From Candidatus Cybelea palsarum (GTDB lineage Bacteria > Vulcanimicrobiota > Vulcanimicrobiia > Vulcanimicrobiales > Vulcanimicrobiaceae): a DNA stretch of 36,577 nucleotides. This document shows positions 2,887 to 13,104 of this stretch, piece after piece (position 1 is the first letter of the stretch; the number at the start of each line of letters is the position of its first letter). Both the position numbers and the translations under genes were made by a program. Under the pieces are notes generated by a model. That model was not told the DNA's origin and searched no databases. It saw only the letters and a list, made by a program, of their open reading frames with translations. The stretch spans positions 1 to 36,577 of the forward strand of contig PMUK01000199.1 of assembly GCA_003166915.1 (NCBI GenBank). The letters run 5' to 3'.

Positions 2887-4649
<1,763 letters not shown>

Positions 4650-5943: not shown

Positions 5944-8900
5944 TTGATCGTTCCCTTGCTGCTTGCGACGTCGCTCTACGCTGCAAATCCCGTCGCATCA
6001 CCTTTGCCGGCGTCGCCGCTGCCTCCGAGGCCGGCGGCATCGGTTTCCCCGTCGCCGTCACCCTCGCCCACGGCAACGCCTGGGCCTCCGTTTGCAAACA
6101 TGACCTGGCGTGAAATCGGTCCCGCCGGCGGCGGAGGACGCGTTGCGGCGGTTGCCGGTTCGGCGACGGATCCCAAACTCTATTACGTCGGCGCCGCGGG
6201 CGGCGGAGTTTGGAAATCGGCCAATGGCGGGCAAACGTGGGCTCCCGTCTTCGACGATCAAGACGTTGCCGCAATCGGTGCGGTGACGATCGATCCAACC
6301 GACAACGACACGGTCTGGACTGGAACGGGCGAAGGTAATCCGCGCAATGACGTGAGTTATGGCAACGGCGTTTACAAGACGACCGACGGCGGCGACCACT
6401 GGACCAACACCGGCCTCAAGGAGACGAAGTACATCACCCGGATCGTCGTGGACCCGCGCAATCACAACCACGTCGTCGTTGCCGCATTGGGCGACACTTT
6501 CAGCGACAGCCCGCAGCGCGGCATTTACGTTACCGACGATGGCGGAAAAACGTGGAAGCAGACGCTCTCCGTCGGGCCGGAAAGCGGCGCATCGGACCTC
6601 GCCATGAACCCCCAGGATCCCAGCGTGCTCTACGCCGGCATCTGGAAGTTCCAGCGCCGGCCGTGGACGTTCGTCAGCGGCGGAGAAGAGGACGGCATCT
6701 ACAAGTCGACCGACGGCGGCGCGACTTGGACGGAGCTCGTGGGACACGGTCTACCGGCGAGTCCGATGGGGCGCATCGGCTTAGCGGTCGCGCCGAGCGA
6801 CGGCAACCGCGTCTACGCGGTGATTGAATCGAAGGCCGGCGTGCTGTGGCGATCCGACGACGGCGGCGCCAACTGGACGATGGTCAGCGACAACTCGTCG
6901 GTCGACGCACGCCCCTTCTACTTCTCGCACGTCGCGGTCGATCCGAAGAACGCCGACCGCGTCTACGCGGTCTCCTTTCAACTTATGCTAAGCACGAACG
7001 CCGGAAAAACGTTCAAACCGATCGCGCCGTCCGTGCACGTGGATTATCACGCTATTTGGATCGCACCGAACGACCCGTCGCGCATCATGACCGGCGAGGA
7101 CGGCGGCTATGCCCTTACGCTCGACGGCGGCGAGAACTGGTTCTTCTCGGCCAACTTGCCGATCGGCCAGGTCTACCGCGTCGGACTCGGCAACGATAAT
7201 CCATATACGGTTTGTGCCGGTCTGCAAGACAACGGTGCCTGGTGCGGCCCTTCGAACTCGCTCGATCCTTCCGGCATTCAGAACAAGGCGTGGATCGCTT
7301 CGTCAGGCGGCGACGGCGAATGGAGCATTCCCGAACCCGACGATCCGAACTGGCTCTGGTCGGACTCCCAGAACGGTTCGCTTACCGTTTACAACCGCGT
7401 GACGCAAGATCAGTGGTCGGCACAGCCCTACGTTCAGACGGGTAAAGAGTCGTGGGAACTCGCGACGAGCAAGTATCGATTCAACTGGGAATCGCCGATC
7501 GCATTCGACCCCTGGCGCAAGAATGTTGCCTGGTTCGGCGGCAGCGTCGTCTTCCAAACGACCGATCGCGGAAGATCCTGGCGCGCGATCAGTCCCGACC
7601 TCACGCGCAATCTCAAAACGCATCAGCAGCCCGCAGGCGGCCCGATCACGAACGACGTTTCCAGCGCGGAATACAGCGACACGATTCTCGACATCGAAGG
7701 CTCGACGAAAACCAGGGGCGAGATTTGGGTCGGCACCGACGACGGGCTGGTTCAGCTGACACGCGATGCTTCGACAGGCTCAGCACAGGCTCACTGGAAA
7801 AATGTGACGCCTCCGGGAGCGCCCGAGTTCGCGCGCTTTGCGACGGTCGCGCCCTCGACGCTCGTCGCGGGGACCGCGTACGCGATCGCCGACGGACATT
7901 ACACCGGCGACAATGCGCCGTACGCCTTCGTCACTCACGATTACGGCAGCCACTGGACGAAGATCGTCGCCGGCCTGCCGGCCAATCAGTGGGTTCGGGC
8001 GATTCGGCCCGACATCAGAAATCGCAACATCGTCTATCTCGGCACCGAAGAAGGGATGTGGATTTCGTTCGATGGCGCAGCGAACTGGCAATCGTTCAAA
8101 AACGGCCTGCCCCCTGTTTCCGTGCACGACATTCGGTTACAGCCGCAATACGACGACCTCGTGATCGCGACGCACGGGCGAGACGTCTTTATCATGGACG
8201 ATATGACTCCCGTGCAACAGCTTATGGAAGCGGTCGCGCAAAAAAGCCGGCTCTTTGCGCCGCCGGTAGCCTACGAGTGGTCGTTACATCCCAACGACGA
8301 TGGCGTCTACACGAACTTCGCGGCGGACAACCCGCCGTACGGCGTGGCGATCACCTTCTATCAGGCGCAGCCTCAAAAAGATGCGCCCAGAATCGACGTC
8401 CTCGACAGCTTCGGTCGCGTGATACGCACGATCTCCGGCACTCACAAAGTCGGTGGTAAGGACCGCCCCTACGTTCCGAACAAAGCCGGCTTGAACCGTT
8501 ACACGTGGGATTTCAACGTCAACGGTCCGGTAAAGTGGAACGGCGCGACGCAGGACTTTCTCAACCCCGCGACCGGACCGGGAGTCGTACCGGGGCTCTA
8601 CTCCGTGCGCTTGACCCTCTCGGGGCGAACGTACCTGCAGCGTGTCAAAGTCGAGCCGGACCCGCGTTCGGTGTTCGCGCAGGCCGAGTATCAGCGCAGC
8701 TTCGACGAGTCGATGCGTCAGATGTCCCACCTATCGCAGATCAACACCGTGCTCAATACGCTCGACGACCTCAAGAAGTCGATCGATACCGCGCTTGCCG
8801 CTGCGAAGAAGGCGAATAATGCCGCGTTAACGGCCAAGCTCGAGGACGCGTCGAAGGCGCGGCAGACGCTCTTTAGTTCGCTCGCCGTGAACGTTCGAGG

Positions 8901-9138: not shown

Positions 9139-12100
9139 TGCTGGTTTCGACGATACTCTTTGCGGCCGCGGCGTACGCGAATCTGTCGTGGCGTTCGATT
9201 GGACCGGCGATCGCGGGCGGCCGCGTCGCCGCGGTGGCGGGAACGCCGCAAGACGACCAGCTCTACTATCTCGGAACCGCCGGCGGCGGCGTGTGGCGCT
9301 CGGTCAATGGCGGTGCGACGTGGCAGCCCGTCTTTGAAAAGCAGGCGGTTTCGGCAATCGGCGCGGTCGCCATCGATCCGACCAACGAGCGCGTCGTCTG
9401 GGCGGGAACCGGCGAGGCGAACCCGCGCAACGACGTCAGCTATGGCGACGGACTCTACAAATCGAGCGACGGCGGAAAGACGTGGCGGCGCGCCGGCTTA
9501 GCCGGCGTTTGGAGTATCTCGCGCATCGCAATCGATCCGCGCGATTCACGCCACGTCGTCGTCGGCGCGTTCGGTGATCCGTTCAAAGATTCAACGAATC
9601 GCGGCGTCTACGTCACGTTTGATGGCGGAGAAAGGTGGAGCAAGTCGCTCTATCTCAGTCCGGCGAGCGGTGCGAGCGACGTTGCGATCAATCCGGTAGA
9701 TCCAAAGATTGTCTACGCTGGCATGTGGCACTTTCGCCGCGTTCCTTGGACCTTCACCAGCGGCGGCCCCGACGGCGGGCTCTATAAATCAACCGACGGT
9801 GGCCGTAGGTGGAGAAAGCTTAACGGCCACGGATTGCCGCAGGGGTTCACCGGTCGTATCGGCTTGGCGATTGCGCCCAGCCGTCCGAGCCGGATCTTTG
9901 CGCTCATCGAAGCGGCGGGTGGAATTCTATGGCGCTCCGACGACGCCGGCGCGCGCTGGAAAATGATCAGCGGCGATACGCTCGTCGATCAGCGTCCATT
10001 TTACTTCACACACATTGCCGTCGACCCGAAAAATCCCAATCACGTCTACGCGGTTTCGGAGATGCTCTCCGAGAGCAAAGACGGCGGCCGCAAGTTCAAG
10101 GAGATCGCCAAGGACGTTCACGTTGACTATCACGCGATCTGGATCGCTCCCAACGATCCCAAGCGGATCATCACCGGTGAAGATGGCGGATTCGCGCTTA
10201 CGAGCGACCTCGAACACTGGTCGTTTTCCCGGAATCTAACGATCGGCCAGATCTATCACGTCGGTCTCTCCAACGAAAACCCGTACACTGTCTGTGCGGC
10301 CTTCCAGGACAACAACGGTTTTTGCGGTCCGTCGAACTCGCTCGACGACGAAGGCATTCTCAACCGCCATTGGATCAACGTCGTCGGCGGCGACGGAATG
10401 TGGACGGTTCCCGACCCAATCGACCCGAATTATATTTGGGCCGATTTGGAGGACGGTGCGGTCACTCTTTTCGATCGCAGGACCGGCGTCAGCCGCTTCA
10501 TTCGTCCGTACGACTCATTTCCCGGGAGTTTTCTCGGGCCGTTTGACTTGAGCAAAGCCGCGTACCGCTTCAATTGGGATTCACCGATTGCATTTGCCCC
10601 TTGGGACGGCCACGTTGCGTGGTTTGGCGGGAACGTCGTGTTTGCGTCGACCGATCGCGGCGAAACGTGGCGGCCGATCAGCCCGGATCTTACGCGCAAT
10701 ATTAAGGAGCACCAGCTGCCCTCCGGAGGGCCGCTGGCGAAGGACGTCTCCGGCGCCGAGTACTCCGACACGATCCTCTATATGGAGGGTTCCTCGATAG
10801 ACCAGGGTGAGATTTGGGTTGGAACCGACGACGGCTACGTGCAAATGACCCGCGACGGAGGGTCGCATTGGCAAAACGTTACACCGCCCGGAGCGCCGCA
10901 GTTCGCGCGCTTCGAAACGGTCGCGCCGTCGCCGTTGGTCGCCGGAGCGGCGTATGCGATTGCGGATAACCATCGCGTGGGAGACTACGCTCCCTACGTT
11001 TACGTCACGCACGATTACGGCGCGCACTGGACGAAAATCGTCGATGGACTTCCAGGGGATCAGTACGCGCGCACGATCCGTCCCGATACTCGCAACCCGT
11101 ATCTGCTCTACGCGGGAACGGAGAACGGTCTTTGGGTTTCGCTCGACAACGGCGCTCGCTGGCAAGATTTCCGAATCAATCTGCCTGCAGTCTCGGTGCG
11201 GGACATCCGGATCCAACCCCAATTCAACGACTTGGTCATTGCGACGCACGGACGCGACGCATGGATTCTCGACGACCTCGACTCCCTGCAACAGCTCGGC
11301 AATGCAGAGCGCGCCGGCGCCATGCTCTTCGCACCGCGAATAGCCTACGAGTATCACTACCATTCCAACGATCCCGGAATCTACACACAGTTCGCGGGCG
11401 ACAATCCGCCAAAGGGTGCGATCGTAGATTTTTATCAGACGGCGCGGCAGAAAAAAGCGCTTTCGTTGCAAATTCTCGATGCCGGCGGCACCGTCATTCG
11501 GACCGTGAGCGGCACGCATAAGGTAAAGGGCAAAGAAGAGCCCTACGTCCCCAACAAAGCCGGCATCAACCGTTACGTTTGGGATTTTACGGAGGACGCG
11601 CCGGCGAAATGGCATGGCGCCGCGCGTGAAGAGTACCAAGGGCCCAAGACGGGCCCGACCGTCGTGCCGGGAACGTATACCGTTCGCTTAGCGCTGGGTG
11701 CGCAAACGCTGACGCAAAGGGTTACGGTGAAGCCCGACCCGCGCGACCAATGGACGCAACAGCAGTACGAATCCGGTTATGCTTTCGCGCGCAAGTATTC
11801 GACGATCTACGGAAAGATCGACGAAGTTCTCAACAACCTCGACGCGATCAAGAAGTCGCTGACGCGCGTCGCGGCATCGGCGAAGAACGATGCAGCGATT
11901 GCAAGCCAAGTAACCGCGGCTTCGCAGAGCTGGGGCCCGGTCTTCGCCGCATTCACCGCCGACTACAAGAACGATGAGGATTCGATCCAGCGCGGTGGTG
12001 CGTTGCGCGAATCGATTCCGCGCACCGGCTTTGGCGGTCCGCAGCTTCCGCCAACGGCGGAGCAGCTCGATTATGCGAAGCGCTTCGATGCCGCGTACGC

Positions 12101-12212
12101 CGCGGCGGTTGCGCAGTACAACGACTACGTCGGACTGCTTTCGCCGCTGCAGGGTGCCTTGAAGAATGCCGGCATCAAGCCGGTCGACGGCGCAGCACCC
12201 GTGTCACCCTGA
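9138..12212 (+). CDS. Secreted BNR/Asp-box (VPS10-like) repeat protein, second of a tandem pair
   Basis: The 1024-residue paralogue of the upstream gene is collinear along nearly its whole length. It has a short signal peptide (MLVSTILFAAAAYA), then directly the propeller without the Pro/Ser linker. Asp-box turns include SVNGGATW, SSDGGKTW, STDGGRRW, TRDGGSHW, THDYGAHW and SLDNGARW. The C-terminal region has the same GTHKV...YVPNKAG.NRY.WDF block as its partner and a helical tail with extra residues. The ATG overlaps the preceding stop by one base, so the pair is translationally coupled. The last codons (VSP, stop) are supplied by a repeat element. The role is unknown; secretion and a carbohydrate- or peptide-binding propeller are the best guesses. 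Confidence 0.85.
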   Translation: MLVSTILFAAAAYANLSWRSIGPAIAGGRVAAVAGTPQDDQLYYLGTAGGGVWRSVNGGATWQPVFEKQAVSAIGAVAIDPTNERVVWAGTGEANPRNDVSYGDGLYKSSDGGKTWRRAGLAGVWSISRIAIDPRDSRHVVVGAFGDPFKDSTNRGVYVTFDGGERWSKSLYLSPASGASDVAINPVDPKIVYAGMWHFRRVPWTFTSGGPDGGLYKSTDGGRRWRKLNGHGLPQGFTGRIGLAIAPSRPSRIFALIEAAGGILWRSDDAGARWKMISGDTLVDQRPFYFTHIAVDPKNPNHVYAVSEMLSESKDGGRKFKEIAKDVHVDYHAIWIAPNDPKRIITGEDGGFALTSDLEHWSFSRNLTIGQIYHVGLSNENPYTVCAAFQDNNGFCGPSNSLDDEGILNRHWINVVGGDGMWTVPDPIDPNYIWADLEDGAVTLFDRRTGVSRFIRPYDSFPGSFLGPFDLSKAAYRFNWDSPIAFAPWDGHVAWFGGNVVFASTDRGETWRPISPDLTRNIKEHQLPSGGPLAKDVSGAEYSDTILYMEGSSIDQGEIWVGTDDGYVQMTRDGGSHWQNVTPPGAPQFARFETVAPSPLVAGAAYAIADNHRVGDYAPYVYVTHDYGAHWTKIVDGLPGDQYARTIRPDTRNPYLLYAGTENGLWVSLDNGARWQDFRINLPAVSVRDIRIQPQFNDLVIATHGRDAWILDDLDSLQQLGNAERAGAMLFAPRIAYEYHYHSNDPGIYTQFAGDNPPKGAIVDFYQTARQKKALSLQILDAGGTVIRTVSGTHKVKGKEEPYVPNKAGINRYVWDFTEDAPAKWHGAAREEYQGPKTGPTVVPGTYTVRLALGAQTLTQRVTVKPDPRDQWTQQQYESGYAFARKYSTIYGKIDEVLNNLDAIKKSLTRVAASAKNDAAIASQVTAASQSWGPVFAAFTADYKNDEDSIQRGGALRESIPRTGFGGPQLPPTAEQLDYAKRFDAAYAAAVAQYNDYVGLLSPLQGALKNAGIKPVDGAAPVSP

Positions 12213-12257
12213 GCCCTTCGTCCTTCGACTGCGCTCAGGACAGGCTCTGTCGAACGG
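12201..12257. repeat. Palindromic repeat supplying stop codons to two convergent genes
   Basis: The element contains GTGTCACCCTGAGCCCTTCG (12201-12220), then CCTTCGAC, CTCAGGACAGGCTC and GTCGAACGG, with CTTCGAC/GTCGAAC inverted ends. The TGA at 12210-12212 ends the plus-strand BNR gene. The TGA read on the minus strand at 12237-12235 ends the serine hydrolase gene. It may also act as a bidirectional terminator through its hairpins. Other copies lie at 7769, 12392 and 17773. Confidence 0.75.
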
Positions 12258-13104
12258 GGAAAAGTCGCCGCAAGAACGTTTCGTGCCGGAACGATGCGCT
12301 CGCGCCGAAATGTACGACCGTCAGATCGAGCGACGGGATCAGGTAAAGCGCTTGGCCTGCCGAGCCGCTCGCGTAGTCGAGATCCTTCGGCGTCCTGAGC
12401 GCAGTCGAAGGGCGAGCGCCAAGCCACCAGCCCAGGCCGTAGTGCGCATTAGGCGGAGAGCCCTCGAAGCAAGGCGCGAGAACGTCGCGCAGGCGCGCGA
12501 CGTAGCGTCCGTATGCAAGCCAGTCCAAGGCGCAGAGTGATGCGCCCGTTGGCAGCGGATGCGTTCCGTCCTTTAGGCTGCGCCAGCTCGCCACCCGGAC
12601 GCCCGCCGGGTCGAGAACGCGCTCGCGCAGATAATCGTGCGGCGTGAGCTTGCGATCGGCGAGCTTGCGTGCGAGCACGGCGCCAAAGACTTGAAACGGA
12701 ATGCCGCCATACGTAAACCGCGAGCCCGGCTCGTTTTTCAGCGGCGTCGCTAGGGCGCGCTCGTACTCCGGAACGGCCGCACCCAAGCCGCCGAAACCAA
12801 AGCCGGCCGTAAGCGAGAGCAGCATGCGCAAGGTGACGCGGCGCTTCCATGGATCGTCGCGCCACGAGGCAAATGTCGCAGCGACCGTTTCGTCGAGTTC
12901 GAGCAATCCATCGTCGCGCGCGCAGAGCGCCGCGGGGCCCCAAAAGCTCTTCGTTCCGCTGTAAAGCAAATGCGGTTTCTGCTCGCCAAAAGCACCGCCG
13001 TACTCCTGCGCGACGATCTGGTCGCCGAGCGCAATAAGGATCGCATGCAACGCGTGCGTGCGGGCGTATGCGAGCGCAGCCGGAATCTCGATCTCGAGCG
13101 CCAT
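12235..13104 (-). CDS. Serine hydrolase, class C beta-lactamase/DD-peptidase fold
   Basis: The 289-residue protein has the SxxK motif as SGTK (Ser49, Lys52). The second motif is Tyr132 in TYGG, where the common form is YSN/YxN. No clear KTG/HxG box is visible; GSAGQ near residue 247 is the likely counterpart. There is no signal peptide, so it is probably cytoplasmic or unconventional. The family includes esterases, DD-peptidases and beta-lactamases, and the substrate cannot be told. Residues 232-238 (PSTALRT) and the last residues (VRQSLS) are encoded by two inverted copies of a dispersed repeat, so the native C-terminus has been altered. It starts 38 bases from the divergent sugar porter. 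Confidence 0.8.
   Translation of the reverse strand: MALEIEIPAALAYARTHALHAILIALGDQIVAQEYGGAFGEQKPHLLYSGTKSFWGPAALCARDDGLLELDETVAATFASWRDDPWKRRVTLRMLLSLTAGFGFGGLGAAVPEYERALATPLKNEPGSRFTYGGIPFQVFGAVLARKLADRKLTPHDYLRERVLDPAGVRVASWRSLKDGTHPLPTGASLCALDWLAYGRYVARLRDVLAPCFEGSPPNAHYGLGWWLGARPSTALRTPKDLDYASGSAGQALYLIPSLDLTVVHFGASASFRHETFLRRLFPVRQSLS
12392..12411. repeat. Inverted 20-base copy of the dispersed repeat inside the serine hydrolase gene
   Basis: The bases here are the exact reverse complement of 12222-12241 (CCTTCGACTGCGCTCAGGAC). The copy lies in frame and encodes PSTALRT in the hydrolase. The two inverted copies are about 150 bases apart and bracket the last part of the gene, so they could also pair in the mRNA. 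Confidence 0.85.

Follow-up and report, generated by a model that had tools for sequence, protein, structure and literature searches.

Stop codons replaced by a dispersed REP-like palindrome in a Candidatus Eremiobacterota genome

The closest described systems to the repeat considered here are the GTAG and CGTC REPs, the Rickettsia palindromic elements (RPE) and the REPs of Escherichia coli. GTAG REPs often supply a TAG stop codon. REPs also lie near both 3' ends of convergent genes, most of them less than 20 bp from both ORFs, and in-frame copies are present in genes of other bacteria, DnaE2 included (Di Nocera et al., 2013, PMC3733652). CGTC REPs are defined by a CGTC or TGTC tag, an 8-9 bp stem starting with AT, a loop of 4-5 and a CCA tail, and have no dedicated transposase (PMC3733652). 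RPE, as described in PMC3733652, are inserted in frame in conserved protein genes and add ~8-16 residues. According to the summary in PMC12306157, E. coli REPs lower translation when they lie no further than 15 nt from a stop codon.

The window analysed here, a stretch of 36,577 nucleotides from a Candidatus Eremiobacterota genome (G000; 3.36 Mb, 249 contigs, 94.8% complete), carries a repeat of comparable nature. As with GTAG and CGTC REPs, its family consists of short dispersed palindromes found near gene 3' ends and between convergent genes, with some copies in frame, including one in DnaE2. Unlike GTAG REPs, it has a different sequence, bears no GTAG tag and is accompanied by no RAYT in the genus; moreover, GTAG REPs give the stop from the tag, whereas the TGA of the window family lies in the arm or the core. 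CGTC or TGTC is often found ahead of its stem; the stem does not always start with AT, and no CCA tail is seen. Kinship to the CGTC superfamily is possible. The family resembles RPE in its in-frame insertions, which likewise add ~8-16 residues, yet belongs to another phylum and is prominent in stop donation. Its copies can lie 15 nt or less from stop codons, as E. coli REPs do, but here the stop is often inside the element. Since 3'-end, in-frame and stop-donating REPs were reported by Di Nocera et al. (PMC3733652), the kind is already known; the repeat itself is a new family among REP/RPE-like elements, in a family of Eremiobacterota.

The core of the element, CTTCGACTNCGCTCAGG, is present in 50 exact copies in G000 and in 72 at one mismatch or fewer, against 1 match for a reversed control pattern, and a BLAST search with 12180-12275 (96 bases) returned 43 matches in this genome, the best with 93% over 46 bp. 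The window holds two exact cores, where 0.23 would be expected at two mismatches or fewer. Copy number and controls reject a chance resemblance. The original prediction was therefore right to call the element REP-like; it is a well-documented dispersed palindrome of the window genome and is by no means restricted to this locus. In other copies, the basic unit is approximately TGTCATCC-TTCGACTGCGCTC-AGGATGACA and the composite form is TGTCATCCTGAGCC-CTTCGACTGCGCTCAGGACAGGCTC-CGTCGAAGGATGACA, of which the window copy is a degenerate version with an extra CTTCGTC. The CTTCGAC and GTCGAAC ends first ascribed to it fit loosely, its outer arms TGTCACCC and GAACGGGG being degenerate where better copies have TGTCATCC...GGATGACA.

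Among congeners, the strict core ranges from 0 to 143 exact copies, and it is almost absent outside the genus. A wider form, CCTGAGC-N0-5-GTCGAAGG, is frequent across numerous genera of this family, with up to 251 copies, and hardly occurs in the phylum's other families; its reversed control matched 0 or 1 times per strand. Tandem arrays of ~30-33 bp units are common in the high-copy congener G007 (L145, L147, L150, L153, L154, L160, L161), where several contigs end at or near element copies, so that copy numbers in this genome are probably underestimated. Rfam gave no match at the repeat element; elsewhere in the window, at 2887-2994, it recognises a TPP riboswitch (RF00059, 65 bits) directly upstream of thiC (2985-4649). 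A text search of the literature with the DNA strings of the repeat and its peptides found no relevant paper.

At the window locus, with region sequence GTGTCACCCTGAGCCCTTCGTCCTTCGACTGCGCTCAGGACAGGCTCTGTCGAACGGGG, the two convergent genes have their TGA stops within one repeat, as originally proposed (Table 1). The best relatives of the BNR gene come from Candidatus Eremiobacterota MAGs, mostly from soil (isolate names such as palsa_1517).

Table 1. Features of the repeat and its neighbouring genes, in window coordinates
Feature	Position	Strand	Basis
Degenerate composite copy of the palindromic repeat, ~54-59 bp form	12201..12259		genome matches and copy alignment
Left arm TGTCACCCTGAGCC; first 7-8 bases coincide with the ancestral BNR codons GTG TCA CC	12202..12215	+	
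Core CTTCGACTGCGCTCAGG	12223..12239	+	50 exact and 72 one-mismatch genome copies, control 1
Right arm GGCTCTGTCGAACGGGG, degenerate	12243..12259	+	
Stop codon (TGA) of the second BNR/Sortilin-Vps10 gene, at its ancestral position; TAA/TAG in repeat-free relatives	12210..12212	+	
TGA stop of the serine hydrolase, supplied by the repeat core	12235..12237	-	
Hydrolase C-terminal PVRQSLS, repeat-coded; relatives end in FR or LR before the stop	12238..12258	-	
Second core copy, in frame within the hydrolase gene	12394..12410	-	
BNR/Sortilin-Vps10 repeat protein, 1024 aa	9138..12212	+	Pfam PF15902, PF02012
Beta-lactamase-fold serine hydrolase, 289 aa	12235..13104	-	Pfam PF00144

Repeat-free relatives make the ancestral state of this locus readable. 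In L065 and L066, the BNR and hydrolase genes overlap by 9 bp tail to tail: the BNR gene ends GTG TCA CCT TAA or GTG TCA CCG TAG, and the hydrolase TGA is read from the strand opposite the BNR serine codon TCA. The BNR C-terminus is GTGTCACCTTAA in L065 and GTGTCACCGTAG in L066, and the ~60%-identical BNR of L098 also closes with PVSP. Because repeat-free relatives keep VSP, this end is ancestral, and the claim that it is repeat-coded is rejected; in the window ORF, which closes GTG TCA CCC TGA, only the last codon (TGA for TAA or TAG) could derive from the repeat. The window shares TGA as its BNR stop with L063 and L064, and a different repeat piece follows it in each of the three. The claim fares better for the hydrolase, whose tail in the window, FLRRLFPVRQSLS (FPVRQSLS), is not found in relatives, where the protein ends in FLRRLFR, LLR or similar; its last residues and stop (PVRQSLS, TGA) are supplied by the repeat. 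Compared with the repeat-free L065, the window has gained ~49 bp (12211-12259, with ambiguous indel ends). At the second core copy, the hydrolase reads ARPSTALRTPKD in the window versus AR-NSPKD in L064. The same hydrolase loop carries independent in-frame inserts, PSTALRT in the window and FDSAQDK in the more distant congener L072.

Replacement of stops by the repeat recurs across the genome, as seen in stretches sampled around repeat copies, with genes called by our own dicodon model rather than a published caller. In G000, 13 genes extend into a core and terminate no more than 60 nt from it; 10 of these share one TGA, read antisense to the core, and have VSS, VSP, MSS, SLSS or SLS as their tails (binomial p = 2.9e-6 against 1/6 expected). 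Random insertions simulated in the last 33 nt of genes gave 0.169 for this class, and the count of in-frame TGAs suggested by the original prediction thus turned out in its favour. The genomes G006 and G007 each contribute 2 of 5 genes; the pooled 14 of 23 (p = 2.3e-6) include genes orthologous to those of G000 and are not independent, and the test is small (13 genes in G000, 5 in each of the two others). For 7 of the 10 stop-donated genes, hydrolase included, repeat-free relatives have a different C-terminus, and to this extent the element does fix gene ends, the BNR stop keeping its ancestral position. Compared with orthologs in the congener G003 and in G016, the proteins with and without the repeat end, respectively, in NGLRAVSS versus NGLRAAEAA or TGLRAAAA (L021), FSKLMVSS versus FSKLTET (L022), SPSPPVSP versus SPSPTQ (L031), EKEPLLPVSS versus EKEPVEV (L033), NVAMSS versus STAAVRA (L055) and LASRMSS versus LASS (L032). 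At L022, the stops of the two convergent genes originally overlapped in a shared TTAG, and here too the insertion parted the genes. In L021, L022 and L031, the original stop is still present a short way downstream.

Although 91% of the sequence is coding, just 25 of 76 copies lie inside CDS. Judged by spacer length, the 51 copies outside CDS are over-represented at convergent junctions (19 observed, 9.4 expected, p = 0.001) and under-represented at divergent ones (4 observed, 12.2 expected). A stop codon lies 15 nt or less from 20 of them, where 8.9 would be expected (p = 2e-4). As an imperfect palindrome of 20-40 bp, present in high copy and mostly outside genes, the element has the general features of a REP. 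It also inserts in frame within conserved protein genes in the manner of RPE (ArgB, DnaE2 and the L038 protein), and the peptides PSTALRT, PERSRR, LSAVEG and FDCAQDD (also FDCAQD) within conserved proteins are repeat-coded. By eye, we take several of the proteins with in-frame copies to be a DnaE2-like polymerase, DinB, PurA, ArgB, SufS, DapF and riboflavin synthase. Several in-frame segments are absent, shortened or different in a congener: in G003, the segment is absent from ArgB and the L038 protein and shorter in DnaE2, and the argB empty site reveals a clean 24-bp insertion. The DnaE2-like gene of L024 (5381-8569, core at 7080) holds a composite copy in frame, where G003 carries a shorter unit of the repeat. 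MITEs are defined by terminal inverted repeats with a target-site duplication; the ends of the present element are palindromic, and the few empty sites aligned show no consistent duplication.

We consider it highly probable that the window repeat belongs to a dispersed family of non-autonomous REP/RPE-like palindromes filtered by selection, and that it donates the hydrolase stop. The element measures ~30 bp, with a consensus near CTTCGYCC-TTCGACTNCGCTC-AGGRTGACA, besides composite forms of ~54 bp, and would have spread within the Eremiobacterota family by a mobilising machinery. A search for a RAYT/Y1 transposase (PF01797) as the mobilising enzyme found none in 18 genomes of the genus, several of them incomplete, while the control was positive in 5 of 14 genomes; RAYT is accordingly rejected as mobiliser within the genus genomes searched, and the GTAG flank is absent from the position consensus of 244 copies. 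In a dense genome, surviving copies would be those leaving proteins usable: copies in intergenic spacers, directly at the 3' end of a gene or, in frame, within tolerant loops. One phase, antisense to the core, reads xTG TCA YCC TGA, so that a gene entered near its end receives V/M/L-S-S/P and an immediate stop; this phase dominates 3'-end insertions and is probably the least disturbing at a gene end. At the window locus, the insertion turned a 9-bp tail-to-tail overlap into a 22-bp spacer, keeping the BNR end and moving the hydrolase stop into the repeat. We infer that the phase bias stems from such a purifying filter rather than from targeted insertion or benefit.

Were insertion targeted to stop-codon or TGTCACC-like sequences, the phase bias would instead reflect target choice. 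The ancestral GTGTCACC at the BNR end equals the element's arm in sequence, different repeat pieces sit at this same spot in three genomes, and the empty sites of L057 and L033 are also element-like; nevertheless, clean empty sites, for instance argB in L205, lack TGTC, and the surviving stops of L021, L022 and L031 place the insertion upstream of them. We regard targeting as unlikely. There is likewise a low probability that the element acts as a translational regulator, its hairpin stalling the terminating ribosome as proposed for E. coli REPs located 15 nt or less from a stop. The excess of copies at this distance and the published rule (as described in PMC12306157) agree with such a role, but with the TGA inside the stem the ribosome must open the hairpin before stopping, and purifying selection predicts nearness to stops as well.

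The original prediction had also envisaged a two-way cassette, kept between convergent genes and stopping translation and transcription on both strands. The enrichment at convergent junctions and the parting of overlapping genes at the window locus and L022 speak for it, as does a hairpin with a covarying stem: a good fold is obtained for the 30-mer on either strand (-12.3 kcal/mol, z about -3.3), and the Y-R stem pair (TC/AG) covaries in three of three genomes (Fisher p <= 3.3e-4 each). The fold of the window copy is, however, unremarkable (z -1.3 and -1.1), no terminator-like site is present at 11900-12700 of the window, and beyond the stem the T content equals background; of 488 element ends, 2 have a T-rich tail. 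An intrinsic terminator, meaning a GC-rich hairpin followed by a T tract, is thereby rejected; as many copies also lie within coding genes and the BNR stop position is older than the repeat, we hold the cassette to be very improbable. Quite improbable, too, is a recurrent adaptive 3'-end module, whose phase-locked TGA would be selected for uncoupling overlapping genes and standardising ends (x-S-S/P-stop plus hairpin).

What close relatives provide here is direct before-and-after evidence of a short palindrome replacing stops and rewriting C-termini, predominantly with a single orientation and phase, and turning overlapping convergent genes into separated ones. Stop donation by GTAG REPs had been noted in passing; the present case adds readable ancestral states and a strong orientation-phase bias. 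It also places a REP-like family without known transposase in the Eremiobacterota, and carries a warning for annotation, as such stretches of these proteins as PSTALRT, PERSRR, LSAVEG and FDCAQD come from the repeat. If the adaptive-module reading were true, the element would influence how transcripts or proteins terminate, or how mRNA decays, in a large part of a bacterial family that is uncultured.
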